Source of the DNA: Firmicutes bacterium HGW-Firmicutes-19
GTDB lineage: Bacteria; Bacillota_I; Bacilli_A; Erysipelotrichales; Erysipelotrichaceae
Direction: 5' to 3'
Assembly (NCBI GenBank): GCA_002841515.1
Contig: PGZW01000004.1
Location: 1-33,160 of the forward strand
DNA length: 33,160 nucleotides
In this document: positions 3,258 through 20,611 of the stretch, piece by piece
Layout: the number at the start of each line of letters is the position of its first letter
How positions within the stretch are numbered: position 1 is the first letter of the stretch
Notes under the pieces: model-generated
What the model saw: only the letters and a program-made list of their open reading frames with translations
Databases searched by the model: none
What the model was told of the DNA's origin: nothing
Made by a program: the position numbers and the translations under genes

Positions 3258-4613
3258 ATGGAAAATTGGGATGAATTGACATTGACAATGCTTAAAGAGA
3301 TCATCACAAATAAACAAGTTAAAAAACTGCGTGAGATCTTTGAAGAAGTCAACATCGTCGACTTGGCGGAGATGGCGGAGCAATGTACCTTAAGTGAGGT
3401 TCTTTTTGTCTTTAAGACGGTAAAAAAGGAAGTTACGGCAGATTTGTTTGCGTATCTTTCTGTTGATAAACAAGAAGAACTGATCAGAACCTTTACCGGA
3501 CCTGAAATCAAGAGCATTTTGGATAACTTGTACCTGGATGATGTGGTTGACTTTTTGGAAGAAATGCCTGAAAGCATCGTTAAGAAAGTCCTTCAAAATG
3601 CGACCAGTGAGCAGCGGGTTGAAATCAATACCCTGTTAAGTTATGCACCAAATTCAGCCGGTTCGATTATGACGACGGACTATGTGGAATTGTTTGAGCA
3701 TCATACGGTTGAAGAGGCGATGGAGCAAATTCGGAAGCAAGGTAAAACGGCAGAAACCATTAATACTTGTTTCGTTATAAATAAAAGCAATACATTATTA
3801 GGTTCAGTATCTTTGCGTGAGATTCTTTTTGCTTCTGAAGATAAAGAAATTTGCGAAATCATGGATACGGACATCGTGGCGGTAACCACCGGTGATGACC
3901 AGGAAGAAGTAGGCCGCATTTTCCAGAAATATGACATCTCAGTGGTAGGGGTCGTTAATAGTCAGTTTAAACTGGTAGGAATCATTACTGTCGATGACGT
4001 TATTGACGTATTGGAAGAAGAAGCAACCGAAGATATCCACTTAATGGCTGGTATCCGCCCGGTCGAGGGGTCTTATTTAGAGTCCAATGTCTGGGAGATT
4101 TTTAAAAGCCGGATTCCGTGGTTGTTGATTTTGATGATTCCGGCAACACTTACAGGGTTGATCATTGAGGGGAACTCGGCTATTTTACTGATTGTTCCTT
4201 CATTGGTTAACTTTATCCCGATGTTGATGGATACAGCAGGAAATGCCGGATCGCAGGCAAGTGCGATGGTCATTCGGGGAATTGTTGTCGATGATCTGTC
4301 GATCAAAGATTTTTTGGCGGTTCTGTTTAAGGAACTTAGAGCATCCTTTATGACTGGGTTGATTTTATTTGTGATCAATACGTTAAGAATTGTGATATTT
4401 ATGCCTAATGTTGGCATTATCGTGGCGATATTGGTATCGTTTACAGTTTTTCTGACCATTATACTGGCTAATCTGATTGGTGGTTTGTTGCCTTTGTTTG
4501 CATTGATATTGAAGATCGATCCGGCTTCGATGTCAGGACCAGTCATCACGACACTTGTCGATGCTGTTTCTTTGCTTGTATATTTTTCAATCGCGATTGC
4601 GGTTTTGGGTTAG
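3258..4613 (+). CDS. mgtE: Magnesium transporter MgtE (copy 1)
   Basis: MgtE N domain, CBS pair, TM domain with DTAGNAGSQASAMVIRG. Confidence 0.95.
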   Translation: MENWDELTLTMLKEIITNKQVKKLREIFEEVNIVDLAEMAEQCTLSEVLFVFKTVKKEVTADLFAYLSVDKQEELIRTFTGPEIKSILDNLYLDDVVDFLEEMPESIVKKVLQNATSEQRVEINTLLSYAPNSAGSIMTTDYVELFEHHTVEEAMEQIRKQGKTAETINTCFVINKSNTLLGSVSLREILFASEDKEICEIMDTDIVAVTTGDDQEEVGRIFQKYDISVVGVVNSQFKLVGIITVDDVIDVLEEEATEDIHLMAGIRPVEGSYLESNVWEIFKSRIPWLLILMIPATLTGLIIEGNSAILLIVPSLVNFIPMLMDTAGNAGSQASAMVIRGIVVDDLSIKDFLAVLFKELRASFMTGLILFVINTLRIVIFMPNVGIIVAILVSFTVFLTIILANLIGGLLPLFALILKIDPASMSGPVITTLVDAVSLLVYFSIAIAVLG

Positions 4614-4625
4614 AGGAGGTTTACC

Positions 4626-5984
4626 ATGGTTGAAATGATGGATATTACTTCCCAACAATTGAGTGAACTGATCGAATTGCGTCAAGTCAGGAATCTTCGG
4701 ACGATTTTTGATGAGTATAACTTGATTGACTTAGCGGAAATTGTTGAACAGTTGCAGTTGAAGGAGATTTTGTTTTTGTTTAAGACGTTGAAGAAAGATA
4801 TTACAGCGCAGATTTTCACGTATCTGACCTATGAGAAAAAACAGGAAATCATACAATCGTTTACTTCCGTTGAAATCATGGCGATGTTGGATAATCTGTA
4901 TACGGATGATATCGTCGACTTCTTAGAGGAAATGCCGGCGAATATCGTCAAGCAAGTTTTGAACTCTGCAAGCGCGGAGCAACGTGCGGATATCAATTTG
5001 CTTTTAAGTTATCCTGAGTATTCAGCGGGTTCGATCATGTCTACGGATTTTGTGGAACTTGAGGCAACGGATACTGTGGCTCGGGCTATTCGAAAAATAA
5101 AGCAGCAAGGGAAAACGGCTGAGACCATCAGTGTCAGTTATGTCATTTCTCAAAATCGTGAGTTGGTAGGTACCGTTCGCTTGAGAGATATACTATTAGC
5201 GGAAACGGAGGATACGATTGAAGATTTGATGGATGTCGATGTCATTTCTGTTAAGACGCATGATGATCAGGAGTCGGTTGCTCATGTAATTAAGCGATAT
5301 GACATTACGGTTGTTCCGGTGGTCAACGATGAAAATCGTCTGATTGGGATCATCACGGTCGATGATATCATTGATATTTTGGAAGATGAAGTTACTGAGG
5401 ATATTCAAAAGATGGCTGCAATCATGCCAATCGAGGGGTCATACTTGAAGACTTCAGTCAAAGAGATGACAAAAAGCCGTATCACGTGGCTGTTGGTGTT
5501 GATGGTTTCGGCAACGTTTACGGGTACCATTATTTCAGGATATGAGGATGCTTTGCTTTTGATTCCAGCTTTAGCAGCATCGATTCCATTGATCATGTCA
5601 ACTGCGGGTAATGCAGGCTCTCAGGCGTCTGCAATGGTCATTCGTGGTATTGCAGTTGGAGAGTTGTCAGTGAGTGATTATTTGAAGGTCATCTTCAAAG
5701 AAGTACAAGTGGCGATCCTTAGTGGTTTGGTATTGTTTGCGATCAACTGGTTGCGTTTGATGATTTTCACGCCGGAAACAAGTATGACCGTAGATTTGGT
5801 TATTTCGTTGACATTGATGCTTACGGTGGTGATTTCTAAGCTTGTGGGCGGTGTGTTACCTTTATTGGCGATGTTCTTTAAACAGGATCCGGCGGCAATG
5901 GCGGCTCCGTTGATTACGACCATGGTCGATGCGGTGGCTTTGATGATTTATTTCAATCTGGCAGTATCTATGTTGGGTTTATAG
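4626..5984 (+). CDS. mgtE: Magnesium transporter MgtE (copy 2, tandem paralogue)
   Basis: Same domain layout as copy 1, STAGNAGSQASAMVIRG motif; agaggaggt SD upstream. Confidence 0.95.
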   Translation: MVEMMDITSQQLSELIELRQVRNLRTIFDEYNLIDLAEIVEQLQLKEILFLFKTLKKDITAQIFTYLTYEKKQEIIQSFTSVEIMAMLDNLYTDDIVDFLEEMPANIVKQVLNSASAEQRADINLLLSYPEYSAGSIMSTDFVELEATDTVARAIRKIKQQGKTAETISVSYVISQNRELVGTVRLRDILLAETEDTIEDLMDVDVISVKTHDDQESVAHVIKRYDITVVPVVNDENRLIGIITVDDIIDILEDEVTEDIQKMAAIMPIEGSYLKTSVKEMTKSRITWLLVLMVSATFTGTIISGYEDALLLIPALAASIPLIMSTAGNAGSQASAMVIRGIAVGELSVSDYLKVIFKEVQVAILSGLVLFAINWLRLMIFTPETSMTVDLVISLTLMLTVVISKLVGGVLPLLAMFFKQDPAAMAAPLITTMVDAVALMIYFNLAVSMLGL

Positions 5985-7381: not shown

Positions 7382-8416
7382 TTATGATTTTTCCATGATT
7401 TCCAGTAAGTAATCCTCTGATTCTTTCATCAAATGCGTGTAAACTCTTAGTGTCGTATTGATGTCTTCGTGTCCCAGTCGCTTCGATACAGCTACGATAT
7501 TAACGTTCTTCGAAATAAGGTAAGAGGCATGTGAATGTCTCAAGTCATGCAGTCGTATCTCTTTTATTCCGGCTGCAAGCGTTGCTTTGCGAAACTCACG
7601 TTGAATCGTTGATAAGGCAACGGATGAATGATTGCCGAATAAATAGTCGCCAGGGCTCTCTAGAAGAGGTTTTAACACATCCATCAACACATTATCCATC
7701 TTGATCGTTCGTGCGCTGTTTGCGTTCTTCAGAGGCTTATGTCCGTTCTTGAAATGCTTTATCGACTTATTGATCGTCACTTTGTTATCCTGGATGTCAC
7801 TCTTCAGCAAACCGAGAGCTTCAGATCGGCGAGCTCCAGTTCTAAAGAGAAACGTAAAGTATCCAACCAATATCGGACTTTCGACATGTGAAATGAACTT
7901 CTCGAATTCTTCCGGTGTCCACACTTCAAAGTCGCTGACATCCTCAGCTGTCTTTGGGACGTTCTCCAGTGTCTTGGCCAGATCGGGCAAGTCATAGTAG
8001 ACAAAACCAAACCTGCTGATGGACCGTAGGATCGTGATGGCTTTATTCTTGTAGTTTCGACTGTAGTCGGAATTGGCTATATAATTCCAAACGGCAAGAT
8101 AGTCCCTGGCACGAATCGCTTTTACTTTTTTATCAAATAAATCGCCCCAAAAGTGACTGGCGATATGTTGCTTTTCATGAAGTGTCGCGTCATTGGCCGA
8201 TGCTTTTTTCTTTTGCATGTACGCTTCGAAAAGGTCTCCATAAGTCATCGTGGCATCCGCACTGGGATTGATCTGTGTGCGCAGCGTCACTTCGTAATTG
8301 ATGGCTTCACGCTTGGTGCGAAAGCCACGCTTCTTTTTCGATTTGACGTTACCTAAATTATCCCGGTAAGATACCTGGATGAAATACGTACCGTTGGTGT
8401 CTTTAAAGACTGCCAT
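7382..8416 (-). CDS. int: Phage tyrosine recombinase/integrase
   Basis: RTGARRSEALGL, LHDLRHSHASYLI, LGHEDINTTLRVYTH catalytic motifs. Confidence 0.96.
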   Translation of the reverse strand: MAVFKDTNGTYFIQVSYRDNLGNVKSKKKRGFRTKREAINYEVTLRTQINPSADATMTYGDLFEAYMQKKKASANDATLHEKQHIASHFWGDLFDKKVKAIRARDYLAVWNYIANSDYSRNYKNKAITILRSISRFGFVYYDLPDLAKTLENVPKTAEDVSDFEVWTPEEFEKFISHVESPILVGYFTFLFRTGARRSEALGLLKSDIQDNKVTINKSIKHFKNGHKPLKNANSARTIKMDNVLMDVLKPLLESPGDYLFGNHSSVALSTIQREFRKATLAAGIKEIRLHDLRHSHASYLISKNVNIVAVSKRLGHEDINTTLRVYTHLMKESEDYLLEIMEKS

Positions 8417-9145: not shown

Positions 9146-9712
9146 TTACTTCTTATCTTTCATCAGTTCGTTAAAAATCTCGTCTAAAGACAATCCTTCC
9201 TGCTTAAGCTCTTCGAGTCTCTTTAGCGTTTCCGGAAACTCTTGTCTGTGTTCTATAATTTCTTCCTTGGTATTGTATCCGTAGTTTGGATTTTGAGACA
9301 AGTCGTAAATATAGTCTATTACTTTTTCGAATCCATCTTCATTGATAAAATCCAATGCCGACAGGACTTGGAAATATAAATCCTCCATCCCGTCTCTGAC
9401 GGTTGCTGATGCGATCATGCTAGCATAATCTTTTAGCATATCATCTGCTATCGCACTATCACCAAATCTTGCTTCTATATCAGAGTCGAATTTGTTCATA
9501 GCGACCCCTTCAAAGCCCATCAACCAAGCTTCTTTTACGTTTAGCGCTTTTGCTATTTTATAAATGTTGTCTTGTTTAGGCTCGTATCTTCCCTTAACGT
9601 ATTCTGAAATCATTGATTTAGATATGCCTGTCTTCTCAGCTAATTTGCTTTGTTTTATCCCCCGCACTTTCATAGCCTCTTTCAAGCGGCTACTCACTGG
9701 TGTTCTCTCCAC
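9146..9712 (-). CDS. CI-like XRE-family repressor
   Basis: RLKEAMKVRGIKQSKLAEKTGISKSMISEYVKGRYEPKQDNIYKIAKALNV HTH; divergent from the Cro-like gene; GTG start with SD. Confidence 0.9.
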   Translation of the reverse strand: MERTPVSSRLKEAMKVRGIKQSKLAEKTGISKSMISEYVKGRYEPKQDNIYKIAKALNVKEAWLMGFEGVAMNKFDSDIEARFGDSAIADDMLKDYASMIASATVRDGMEDLYFQVLSALDFINEDGFEKVIDYIYDLSQNPNYGYNTKEEIIEHRQEFPETLKRLEELKQEGLSLDEIFNELMKDKK

Positions 9713-12975: not shown

Positions 12976-13215
12976 ATGAGAAACAAACTAACCGACTTGA
13001 ACAATTATCTGTTTGAACAACTCGAAAGACTCAATGACGATGATCTCACGCCGGAAGAGCTCGAGAAAGAAATCCGCCGATCCAATGCCGTGACCAAAAT
13101 CGGACAGGTCGTCATCAATAATGCAAACATCCTTCTTGAAGCTAAGAAGCACCTGGACGCATTCAGCGGGGATACTTCGGTACTTCCGGACATTCTGAAG
13201 CTTGACAACAAGTAA
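12976..13215 (+). CDS. Hypothetical phage protein
   Basis: ORF with aaaggag SD before ATG 12976. Confidence 0.65.
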   Translation: MRNKLTDLNNYLFEQLERLNDDDLTPEELEKEIRRSNAVTKIGQVVINNANILLEAKKHLDAFSGDTSVLPDILKLDNK

Positions 13216-13216
13216 C

Positions 13217-13831
13217 ATGAACACTCAGCGAAAATACACACCCGAGATCATCCAGTTTGTCCGGGAGAAAGTCAAAGAGTACACCGATAAGCAAATTGCA
13301 GAACTCATCAACCAACGCTGGAATCTCGGCGTCACTGAGTCAAGCATTACCAATCTGAAGACAAGACATAACATCCGGACCGGATTTCATCGGGCGACGT
13401 TTCCGAAAGGACACACACCGATCAATAAAGGAACCAAAGGCATGTTCAACGTCGGAGGCAATGTCACAAGCTTTAAAAAAGGTCACACACCAAACAACTA
13501 TAGACCCGTCCGTAGCGAACGCCTGGATAAAGACGGGTATGTGATGGTCAAGGTTCAGGAACACGGACTGTACCAGCACCGATGGCGGCTGAAACACCGC
13601 GTCGTGTGGGAAGAAGCTTACGGACCGTTAACACCAAATGAAGCAATCGTGTTCAAAGACGGTAACCGAAAAAACTTCGATCTTGACAACTTGATGAAGG
13701 TAACTCGAGCCGAGTTGGTTCAACTGAATAAGCATCGATACCTGACGGGACACGCAGACACTGCAGAACCATCACTCACCCTGATAAGAATCATACGGGC
13801 CATTAGAAAACGAAAGGAGAAAAGAACATGA
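13217..13831 (+). CDS. HNH endonuclease (putative free-standing homing endonuclease)
   Basis: TFPKGHTPINKGTKGMF...RPVRSERLDKDGYVMVKV...LKHRVVWEEAYGPLTPNEAIVFKDGNRKNFDLDNLMKV. Confidence 0.88.
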   Translation: MNTQRKYTPEIIQFVREKVKEYTDKQIAELINQRWNLGVTESSITNLKTRHNIRTGFHRATFPKGHTPINKGTKGMFNVGGNVTSFKKGHTPNNYRPVRSERLDKDGYVMVKVQEHGLYQHRWRLKHRVVWEEAYGPLTPNEAIVFKDGNRKNFDLDNLMKVTRAELVQLNKHRYLTGHADTAEPSLTLIRIIRAIRKRKEKRT

Positions 13832-17686: not shown

Positions 17687-20611
17687 ATGGGTGCAAAACA
17701 CACGACTCGGCATCTCAGTATCGACTTGGAAACCTACAGTAGTGAAGATTTACAATCTGTAGGTCTATACAAGTATTGTGAATCCCCGGATTTCCAAGTC
17801 CTGTTGTTTGCTTACAGCATTAACGGAGGTGAGGTAGAAGTACTCGACCTTGCCTCCGGCGACTCGCTGGATGACGACATGATTTGGATGCTGACTTCGC
17901 CTAACGTACTCAAGCACGCCTATAATGCCCAGTTCGAACGTGTCTGCTTATCCCGCCATCTCGGGTTCCAATTACCGGCGGATCAGTGGCGATGCACACA
18001 AGTGCTGGCCAGCATGCACGGACTGCCGGGACATTTGGCAGAAGTCGGACCCGCCCTAGGCATCACCAATGAAAAGCATTCGTACGGCAAAGCGCTGATC
18101 CAATACTTCAGCAAGCCGGTAACCCCAACCAAAGTCAATCACATGCGCACGAGAAATCTGCCTCACCACGACCCCGACAAATGGGCTCTGTTCAAAGATT
18201 ACTGCGCACAGGACGTGCGTGCGGAAATGGAAATAGCCGACCGGCTGAATGCTCAAGGCATCGACCTGTACACGGACGACCTCAATGAACAACATCTCTA
18301 CACCCTGGATCAGATCATCAACGACCGTGGTATCCGGGTGCAGATGGACCTCGTACAAAACGTAATCAACTACCATCAGCATTACACCAACGAACTGATG
18401 GAATCTGCCAAAGAACTCACCGGGCTCGATAACCCGAAAAGCAACGCGCAAGTCAAAGGATGGCTGGCACAGCGGGATGTGGAAGTCGGCTCGCTCAATA
18501 AAGAATCTGTAGAGAAACTGATGGAAGAGGACCTTGACGATGATGTCAGCGCTATGCTCAACATGCGTAAAGAACTCTCCAAAACATCGATGGCCAAGTA
18601 TGACACCCTCTACCGAGCAACCTGCAACGATGGACGCATTCGGGGAGTATTGCAGTACTACGGAGCCAACCGAAGCGGACGATGGGCCGGAAGGCTCGTC
18701 CAGGTGCAGAACCTGCCGCGTAATTATTTAAAGGAACTCGACGCTGTGCGTCAGCTGGTGATCAAAGACGATTTCGAAAGTCTCAACATGATTTACGATC
18801 AGCTGACAGACATCCTGTCTCAGCTCATACGCACCACGCTGATTCCGGGCAAAGGCAGAAAGTTTGCCATTGCGGATTACTCGGCCATCGAAGCCCGCGT
18901 CATCGCGTGGTTGGCCAATGAGCCTTGGCGCCGGGAAGTATTCGCCGGACACGGCAAGATATACGAAGCCTCTGCTTCGCAGATGTTTAAAATACCGCTG
19001 GAAAACATTACAAAGGATCTAAGACAGAGTGGTAAAGTGGCTGAACTGGCATGCATTGCAGAAGGCCAGTTAGTACTGACGGATCAAGGCTTAGTGCCAA
19101 TTCAGCATATTACATTAAAGCATAAAGTTTGGGACGGACAGAACTTTGTTCGCCACCAAGGATTGTTATACAAAGGCAAAAAGGAGGTAATTACCTATGA
19201 CGGCCTTACCGCAACACCCGACCACCGAGTCTTTGTTGAAGGGCAACAAAGGGAGATACCCTTCGGGGACGCTGCCTCCGGCATTCACCGTTTGCATCGA
19301 CCAAAAACTCCTCGGACAAGTGTTCGGGCACGTGGAGATCATCAGTGCTCAACGACGTTACACGAGACCGAAACACAAAACCCCTTACGTGCTGACAAGG
19401 TGCCTGTCCTGCGGTTACGAACAATGGATAAATTGGAGCAATCTTCGAAGAGGAAAAACCCGAGGATGCCAAGCATGTTCAAAGCCTCGACAAATTCCAC
19501 GATGGCTGGATCGGCGACTGACTGCGGCCAAACAACGCTGCGAGAATACAAACGATCAGGGATATCCGAATTACGGAGGCCGCGGGATAAGATTCGAGTT
19601 CGAGAGCGTATTGCAGGCGGGACTTTGTATGTTGGAGAATTTTCCTCACATAGACCGAGCGCTGGAGCTGGACAGAATCGACAACGATGGTCCTTACGCT
19701 CCTGGAAATATACGCTTGGTGCCTCGGAAAGTAAACCAAGGCAATCGGCGGATAACAAGAATACCGGAATGGTGTCCGGAAGACTGGCCTTACGCATACA
19801 CCGTTGTTTCAAGATATACCAGGGAAGGCAAGTCGAGGGAAGACATACTGGAGTTGGCAAGACTGGCTGTTGCGGAAAAACGCAAGAACTGGCGACAAAT
19901 CGCAAGATGGTTAGAGTCTACGACATCCTCAATGCGGGACCGAAACACAGATTCACAGTCTCCGGAGTGTTAGTACACAACTGCGGATATGGAGGAGGCC
20001 CGCAAGCTTTAGTATCTATGGGCGCTCTTAAAATGGGATTACTAGAACAGGATTTACCCGGGTTGATCCGGAAGTGGCGCAAAGCAAACCCAAACATCGT
20101 GGCTTTATGGAAAAATACGGAAGAAGCCGTCATACAGGCCGTGATGACAGGAAGAGAAGTGAAACTGTCGGATTTGCACAAACAGACTCCTGCAGACCTA
20201 CGTTTCTTCGTCAAAAATGACAACTTGTACATCGTACTTCCTTCCGGAAGAAAAATGGTTTACCGCGGGATCCGTGTGACGGAAAGCGCGGATGGGCGAT
20301 TCGCTATCGATTACTGGGGCGTTAACCAAACCACGCGAAAGTGGAGTCTGACCCGAACATATTCGGGCAAGCTCGTCGAAAATATTATTCAAGGAATCGC
20401 CCGCGACTGTCTGGCTCACACGCTGCTTCAGCTGGACGAGCATCTGTTTACGATCGTCTTCCACGTCCACGATGAGGTCATCTGTGAAACGGACGACCCG
20501 GACAACACCGTAGAGAAAATGAAGCGTATCATGGCTCAGGAAATCCCTTGGGCTAAAGGGCTGACGCTCAAAGCCGAGGCCTACCACAGTGATTATTATG
20601 TCAAGGATTAA
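17687..20611 (+). CDS. Phage family A DNA polymerase (3'-5' exonuclease + polymerase), interrupted in frame by an intein (exteins 17687-19051 and 19982-20611)
   Basis: Exo LSIDLETYSSEDL; motif A FAIADYSAIEARVIAWLA; motif B RQSGKVAELA/CGYGGG split by intein; motif C VFHVHDEVICE. Confidence 0.96.
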   Translation: MGAKHTTRHLSIDLETYSSEDLQSVGLYKYCESPDFQVLLFAYSINGGEVEVLDLASGDSLDDDMIWMLTSPNVLKHAYNAQFERVCLSRHLGFQLPADQWRCTQVLASMHGLPGHLAEVGPALGITNEKHSYGKALIQYFSKPVTPTKVNHMRTRNLPHHDPDKWALFKDYCAQDVRAEMEIADRLNAQGIDLYTDDLNEQHLYTLDQIINDRGIRVQMDLVQNVINYHQHYTNELMESAKELTGLDNPKSNAQVKGWLAQRDVEVGSLNKESVEKLMEEDLDDDVSAMLNMRKELSKTSMAKYDTLYRATCNDGRIRGVLQYYGANRSGRWAGRLVQVQNLPRNYLKELDAVRQLVIKDDFESLNMIYDQLTDILSQLIRTTLIPGKGRKFAIADYSAIEARVIAWLANEPWRREVFAGHGKIYEASASQMFKIPLENITKDLRQSGKVAELACIAEGQLVLTDQGLVPIQHITLKHKVWDGQNFVRHQGLLYKGKKEVITYDGLTATPDHRVFVEGQQREIPFGDAASGIHRLHRPKTPRTSVRARGDHQCSTTLHETETQNPLRADKVPVLRLRTMDKLEQSSKRKNPRMPSMFKASTNSTMAGSATDCGQTTLREYKRSGISELRRPRDKIRVRERIAGGTLYVGEFSSHRPSAGAGQNRQRWSLRSWKYTLGASESKPRQSADNKNTGMVSGRLALRIHRCFKIYQGRQVEGRHTGVGKTGCCGKTQELATNRKMVRVYDILNAGPKHRFTVSGVLVHNCGYGGGPQALVSMGALKMGLLEQDLPGLIRKWRKANPNIVALWKNTEEAVIQAVMTGREVKLSDLHKQTPADLRFFVKNDNLYIVLPSGRKMVYRGIRVTESADGRFAIDYWGVNQTTRKWSLTRTYSGKLVENIIQGIARDCLAHTLLQLDEHLFTIVFHVHDEVICETDDPDNTVEKMKRIMAQEIPWAKGLTLKAEAYHSDYYVKD
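19181..19188 (+). promoter_or_regulatory. Internal Shine-Dalgarno for the nested HNH gene
   Basis: AAGGAGGT, 8 nt before ATG 19197, inside intein codons K-K-E-V. Confidence 0.8.
19197..19973 (+). CDS. HNH-type homing endonuclease nested out of frame inside the intein
   Basis: 258 codons: LGQVFGHVEII...YVLTRCLSCGYEQWINWSNLRRGKTRGCQACSK (Zn finger) ... RLTAAKQRCENTNDQGYPNYGGRGIRFEFES...LELDRIDNDGPYAPGNIRLVPRKVNQGNRR (HNH-like core); own SD and ATG; stop 8 nt before the intein end. Confidence 0.88.
   Translation: MTALPQHPTTESLLKGNKGRYPSGTLPPAFTVCIDQKLLGQVFGHVEIISAQRRYTRPKHKTPYVLTRCLSCGYEQWINWSNLRRGKTRGCQACSKPRQIPRWLDRRLTAAKQRCENTNDQGYPNYGGRGIRFEFESVLQAGLCMLENFPHIDRALELDRIDNDGPYAPGNIRLVPRKVNQGNRRITRIPEWCPEDWPYAYTVVSRYTREGKSREDILELARLAVAEKRKNWRQIARWLESTTSSMRDRNTDSQSPEC

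Follow-up and report, generated by a model that had tools for sequence, protein, structure and literature searches.

Can one stretch of a polymerase gene encode a protein-splicing element in one reading frame and a homing endonuclease in another? The question is raised by a prophage DNA polymerase gene of Firmicutes bacterium HGW-Firmicutes-19 (assembly GCA_002841515.1, contig PGZW01000004.1, positions 1 to 33,160; this whole stretch of 33,160 nt is referred to as the window). An initial annotation, made from the letters alone, placed a complete intein in the polymerase open reading frame (ORF) and a nuclease gene of the HNH type out of frame inside it; its coordinates for the polymerase ORF, the intein and the HNH ORF, as well as the offsets of 145 and 8 nt, are all exact. 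Our analysis makes it very probable that the element is a mobile class 1 intein in a phage family-A polymerase, with the endonuclease encoded by a gene of its own that overlaps in the +1 frame, for which splicing, internal translation and cleavage are predicted from sequence comparison. The features concerned are as follows.

17687–20611, plus strand: precursor of the prophage DNA polymerase (family A) with the intein, 974 aa (phrog_17, E = 3.8e-126; PF00476, E = 5.4e-19).
19052–19981, plus strand: intein, 310 aa, from Cys1 to His-Asn and then Cys+1, aligning with same-site mini-inteins that lack the HNH.
19052–19276, plus strand: N-terminal Hint splicing block with Cys1 and block B, TATPDH (median amino acid identity 67% in the polymerase frame).
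19180–19188, plus strand: predicted Shine-Dalgarno (SD) sequence of the nested gene, AAAGGAGGT, 8 nt before its ATG.
19197–19973, plus strand: nested gene of the putative HNH-type homing endonuclease, 258 aa, +1 frame relative to the polymerase (phrog_374, E = 3.9e-20; same frame in more than 90 loci).
19197–19276, plus strand: 5' dual-coded zone, block B of Hint in the polymerase frame and the HNH N-terminus in the +1 frame (diversity at polymerase codon position 3 falls from 0.62 to 0.36).
19286–19896, plus strand: the "shadow", where the polymerase frame is near-neutral and stop-free and the HNH frame is under purifying selection.
19401–19478, plus strand: predicted zinc-binding CxxC...CxxC of the HNH protein (C69, C72, C91, C94), invariant in an alignment of 31 sequences.
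19662–19757, plus strand: HNH (beta-beta-alpha-metal-like) core, ELDRIDNDGPYAPGNIRLVPRKVNQGNRR, strand-strand-helix in the model, with D159, R160, N171 and N183 invariant.
19901–19981, plus strand: C-terminal Hint blocks F and G (VYDILNAG...HRFTVSGVLVHN), which overlap the 3' end of the HNH gene with its stop codon; conserved in mini-inteins, of high pLDDT and constrained in both frames.

The intein begins with the Cys1 codon at 19052–19054 and ends with ...VLVHN at 19981, followed by the Cys+1 codon TGC at 19982. Cys1, the nucleophile of class 1 inteins, is invariant in the family alignment, as are A54, T55 and H58 of block B, which carries the TxxH signature; the block F Asp is conserved, and the C-terminal His-Asn with Cys+1 (VLVHN|C in the window) is conserved in nearly all loci. 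A profile of the HNH-less family members matches solved inteins (DnaE, 7qil, E = 4.6e-4), and in a Foldseek search the model of the window intein finds the NpuDnaE intein first (E = 7.8e-4, probability 1.00) and then about 40 other inteins, so that both Hint halves of the proposed complete intein are real. The AlphaFold model is confident at approximately residues 1–85 (pLDDT above 90) and 285–310, with pLDDT below 50 across most of residues 92–279. Judged by Cys1, TxxH, His-Asn, Cys+1 and the predicted Hint fold, the element belongs to class 1 inteins, and the polymerase is predicted to undergo protein splicing. Pfam and NCBIfam recognise neither the window intein nor the HNH protein when each is searched alone, and profile searches of PDB with shadow-containing or HNH profiles gave no match. 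A canonical endonuclease-bearing intein, with the nuclease fused in frame between the halves, was considered and rejected: the HNH lies in the +1 frame, and no in-frame case was seen.

The nested ORF starts 145 nt into the intein, and its TAG stop is followed by 8 more nt of the intein. Besides phrog_374, its product matches the PHROG HNH family phrog_3377 (E = 2.9e-16), and the match to Pfam HNH_3 is weak (6 of 32 members, best E = 0.0039). The HNH-like core with a zinc finger, as described initially, stands by homology and by the invariant cysteines, with Arg in place of the first His of the strict motif. Nuclease activity is predicted from the PHROG homology and from the behaviour of the element.

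The same arrangement recurs in many phages. Tblastn of the HNH protein against phage records yielded full-length matches of 45–49% identity inside genes that carry no annotation beyond "DNA polymerase"; these belong to Streptococcus prophages and Gardnerella phage AB1. Profile-guided scanning, seeded by the HNH, of bacterial genomes and viral contigs produced 105 loci; a scan of viral contigs with a single protein query found nothing, while alignment-based scans succeeded. Judging by record titles, these come from phages or prophages of several phyla, among them Bacillota, Gardnerella/Bifidobacteriaceae, Spirochaetes and a Synergistaceae metagenome-assembled genome (MAG). The intein is exactly 927 nt long in 77 of 90 cases, and the HNH is in the +1 frame in all of the approximately 93 loci with both the HNH and the intein N-block detected, except L016. 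The contig of this locus has a frameshift in the intein N-block that is missing from L051, apparently the same strain, and is probably an assembly error in L016.

Selection on the two frames was assessed in several ways. For the stop-codon test, the HNH protein and its codon counts were held fixed and synonymous codons were shuffled in 57 dereplicated inteins. The shadow of these inteins contains no polymerase-frame stops against 525 expected, and the third frame contains 658; in the window alone there are none against 10.7 expected (P < 0.001, 1000 shuffles), in line with the initial estimate that a shadow open by chance would be improbable. In the +2 and other +1 lineages described below, the same test found no stops in 13 of 13 loci, with P < 0.05 individually in 11 of them. 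Among 90 inteins the polymerase frame is never broken, and the HNH frame is broken in two (premature stops in L004 and L023). The nested arrangement is no chance product.

What is conserved differs along the element. In 45 equal-length inteins with the median pairwise nucleotide difference of 0.34, diversity peaks at polymerase codon position 3 (0.62) in the first 145 nt of the intein, and at the HNH third position in the shadow (0.57, versus 0.29 and 0.22 at the other two). Two-frame substitution counts in the shadow give NN/SN of 0.10–0.29 for the HNH frame and NN/NS of about 0.5–1.0 for the polymerase frame, the median amino acid identity being 66% and 33%, respectively; in the edge zones the ratios are lowered in both frames. 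These data support purifying selection on the HNH frame and a polymerase-frame shadow that is kept stop-free without protein-level selection, the truly dual-coded zones being the two edges only. The original suggestion that selection keeps both frames open is hence borne out, and needs to be narrowed: constraint is strong on the HNH and weak on the shadow, which is merely stop-free, and dual selection at the protein level seems confined to the edges.

The nested gene appears to possess its own initiation signals. The duplex energy of the candidate SD sequence averages –12.6 in the family, compared to –10.3 under synonymous recoding (P = 1.8e-5); the window alone (–14.0 versus the expected –9.0, P = 0.17) is not significant by itself. 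The HNH ATG is made by the polymerase-frame Tyr codon TAT and the next G, and this Tyr is encoded by TAT in 50 of 56 inteins, with 28.6 expected from codon usage of the flanking polymerase (P = 6e-11). Selection on the ATG and SD supports internal initiation of the HNH, with translation predicted from the start at +145, and agrees with the original proposal of a nuclease co-inherited with the intein and translationally uncoupled from it. Programmed ribosomal frameshifting from the intein N-part, which would produce a Hint-HNH fusion, is a very improbable alternative: in many loci the HNH frame opens a few codons before the ATG, and entry nearby is needed either way, but no conserved slippery heptamer was found in the first 300 nt of the 57 inteins (one locus has a heptamer at +128, and eight at +299), an HNH-frame stop lies just 5' of the ATG in many loci, including the window, and the ATG and SD are under selection.

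Phage group I introns often bear free HNH ORFs, and the record of Sodalis phage SO-1, a carrier of a related element, is labelled an intron, so that the element might be thought an RNA intron with an incidentally open polymerase frame. We regard this as very improbable: Rfam gave no intron match in the window (the hit was a sub-threshold 5.8S rRNA, E = 0.34) or in eight related loci, an RNA intron would need no open polymerase frame, yet all the expected stops are missing, and the Hint blocks are intact and conserved, with an intein fold predicted. As the searches described above began from the HNH, a separate search was made by the intein N-block alone; it returned inteins with a +1 HNH, a +2 HNH, or no HNH (mini-inteins, 330–522 nt), and none with an in-frame HNH. 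This bears on the possibility that the HNH is a former in-frame domain, frameshifted by indels or sequencing error and now decaying, as could be imagined from the in-frame endonucleases of classical large inteins and from the two prematurely stopped HNH copies; such a history is already contradicted by the lack of an in-frame relative in that search, by the same frame in more than 90 separate assemblies, isolates included, and by the purifying selection on the HNH frame with its maintained start and SD, and we give it hardly any credence. The last alternative, a selected shadow domain (e.g., a linker or an Arg-rich DNA-binding region) with the HNH frame as a by-product, could appeal to a polymerase frame that is always open and Arg/Lys/Ser-rich, and is most unlikely given a shadow near-neutral at the amino acid level, missing from mini-inteins and showing no fold by AF2, against an HNH frame that is twice as well conserved and has known homology.

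Some observations weigh against an overlapping, separately initiated HNH gene, or limit how its support is to be read. The canonical first catalytic His is Arg in the whole family (an invariant D-R-I), with Asn171 and Asn183 invariant, so the label "HNH" rests on homology and not on the strict motif. The structural model of the HNH protein is of modest confidence (pTM 0.54), and a Foldseek search with it against PDB gave no useful match; confidence is lowest in the first 16 and last 13 residues, that is, the parts overlapping Hint. The ATG at +145 is missing in 6 of 57 inteins, where the start must be elsewhere, and some mini-inteins without the HNH also have SD and ATG, which would follow from a loss of the HNH; the direct contrast of SD between HNH-bearing inteins and mini-inteins gives P = 0.06. 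The dN/dS-like values come from simple counting, uncorrected for multiple hits or by a codon model, and the sequences are phylogenetically related, so that per-locus tests are not independent and their P values are optimistic. Still, the stop contrast, observed at the median divergence of 34%, is far outside the uncertainty caused by relatedness.

Mobility of the element, proposed at the outset, is consistent with its distribution. The usual state of the polymerase is without an intein: at least 80% of a contiguous junction query is matched in 517 phage records. In prophages of Clostridium homopropionicum (L015) and Soehngenia longivitae (L018) the inteins are 96% identical at the nucleotide level, and the polymerases, 68–71%. 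Over three 60-nt bins, flank identity of this pair decreases from 0.97 to 0.73 upstream and from 0.90 to 0.62 downstream, so decaying within approximately 120–180 nt on each side, as expected from homing with co-conversion. In Streptococcus, the inteins of PhiSdyV1524 and Javan113 are 99.6% identical, and the 3' flank of PhiSdyV1524 is 97–100% identical to the intein-less Javan181 in four of six 100-nt bins and about 80% identical to Javan113. Near-identical inteins in divergent polymerases point to homing, and the intein is polymorphic in presence and horizontally transferred between divergent polymerases; cleavage of the intein-less allele by the HNH protein is predicted on the same grounds.

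Other loci may represent later or intermediate stages. The intein of PhiSdyV1524 (L004, 2501–3274) was apparently acquired recently, and its HNH has one premature stop with the polymerase frame intact, plausibly a sign of post-homing decay. Two shortened inteins, L129 (372 nt) and L154 (504 nt), retain HNH remnants and the polymerase frame, and are apparently intermediates of nuclease loss, the next step after HNH decay. The intein-bearing Streptococcus phages (L002–L004) have approximately 400 nt of near-identical 5' flank and no common 3' flank, a hint of possible nuclease cutting upstream of where the intein is inserted.

The HNH appears to have been nested in polymerase inteins more than once. 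A +2-frame HNH is found in Sodalis phage SO-1 (L193, 2504–3339) and in Salmonella Jerseyvirus (L192, L198, L199); in the records, the SO-1 element is a type I intron, the VT223 polymerase is an "endonuclease", and the SE2 polymerase is split into two coding sequences (CDSs). In the HNH tree the +2 group forms one clade (100/99) and the Firmicutes-type +1 group another (100/98), while a further +1 group, of APSE, Caulobacter and L186 (99/85), falls among HNH genes from outside polymerase inteins. The start positions agree with separate nested lineages: +145 in the +1 Firmicutes type, a shared ATG at +92 (TTG in one member) in the +2 Jerseyvirus/EBPR type, and near +202 to +205 in the +1 APSE/Caulobacter type. 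Two origins of the nested HNH are well supported by these clades and start positions, and three are likely; for one of them, a frame change through indels at the borders is an alternative. Out-of-frame nesting is probably a stable, recurrent intein architecture, in which distantly related HNH genes have been captured in the Hint linker at least two to three times, always separately initiated and never in frame. With only about three origins the last feature is unsurprising ((2/3)^3, or about 0.3), and selection against in-frame insertion is not claimed. One 214-kb viral contig has two polymerase loci (L153, L157), both with an HNH-bearing intein. In L103 (3785–4294), a related free-standing HNH gene lies directly 3' of an intein-less polymerase and is a possible source of the nested gene.

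Taken together, the life of the element could be envisaged as follows. Translation of the polymerase would yield a precursor with about 190 mostly disordered shadow residues between the Hint halves, and the Hint fold would excise itself, restoring the polymerase. The HNH protein would be made independently off the same mRNA by internal initiation, and the free nuclease would cut or nick intein-less polymerase alleles close to the insertion site, whereupon repair would copy the intein together with flanking polymerase DNA. The need for splicing would select for a stop-free polymerase frame and intact Hint blocks, and the need for mobility, for the HNH protein sequence, its start and SD.

The window, a bacterial contig, contains a prophage whose replication and head genes come after the CI-like repressor:

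7382–8416, minus strand: integrase of the prophage.
9146–9712, minus strand: CI-like repressor of the prophage.

Before its replication genes, the same prophage has another HNH gene, which is free-standing (13202–13831, plus strand; Pfam HNH_3, E = 1.4e-14). A contig of the MAG Firmicutes bacterium HGW-Firmicutes-11 (L007) has the same element, its HNH being 100% identical along its length, while none of the 59 searched relatives of the host genome has a copy, which fits a phage-borne element. In the host flank, two paralogs of MgtE-type magnesium transporters adjoin each other (3258–5984, plus strand).

The nested intein suggests a third way of joining a homing nuclease and a splicing domain, namely overlapping codes, in addition to in-frame fusion and to split or free-standing arrangements. 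If so, recurrent nesting gives two functions that are uncoupled in translation and inseparable in DNA, and the association of splicing domains with nucleases becomes directly testable. It also offers a large natural example of overlapping genes, one fully nested in the other on the same strand, with selection cleanly measured per frame. Further, it would explain large inteins that seem "endonuclease-less" and contain a disordered insert, as well as records in which the annotation is an intron or plainly "DNA polymerase I", and suggests rereading other large inteins without a recognisable nuclease in all frames.

The initial annotation knew of no characterised example. This holds for the polymerase family and its two-frame selection, which we did not find described in open-licence papers, and which a subscription paper could report; the concept of an out-of-frame HNH has already been reported (PMC11855218; PMC4422536). 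The closest likeness is the ShiLan domain of a phage DNA methylase with a hidden out-of-frame HNH (Arsenault, Gosselin, Gogarten 2025, PMC11855218), which is likewise inserted into a phage gene without closing the host frame, has the HNH in another frame and shows a sporadic, homing-like distribution. However, ShiLan has no intein splicing blocks, is thought to be retained in the host protein, and its HNH has no detectable ribosome-binding site, a GTG start and the third frame, whereas the polymerase element is predicted to be a true intein with Hint blocks, SD and ATG, with two-frame selection measured and a DNA polymerase as the host. A ShiLan-type insertion without splicing blocks was therefore rejected for our locus, which shares with it the out-of-frame HNH and the open host frame and has complete Hint blocks. 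The Brucella-phage terminase, encoded by an essential phage gene, is mentioned in passing as having a putative intein with an out-of-frame HNH (PMC4422536); the host gene is different, and splicing blocks, homologs and selection tests are absent from the passages concerned.

Canonical large inteins, whose LAGLIDADG or HNH nuclease is in frame, are similar in combining Hint with a nuclease for mobility and in occupying a conserved site in an essential DNA enzyme, but there the nuclease is a domain of the precursor, and in the polymerase element it is encoded out of frame by a gene of its own, with a separate start. Split-intein "fractured genes", reportedly described by Dassa and co-workers in 2009, are said to have a free-standing endonuclease between the halves. 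Their nuclease is likewise translated apart from the splicing halves, but the host gene is in two pieces and relies on trans-splicing, while here one ORF spans everything and the nuclease gene overlaps it. Group I introns with internal HNH ORFs are also self-removing elements of phage genes with a separate nuclease ORF; the polymerase element differs in its predicted removal at the protein level, with no intron RNA found. With out-of-frame HNH insertions reported before, the nested intein of the polymerase represents a variant that is new and well supported, of a kind hitherto barely described.

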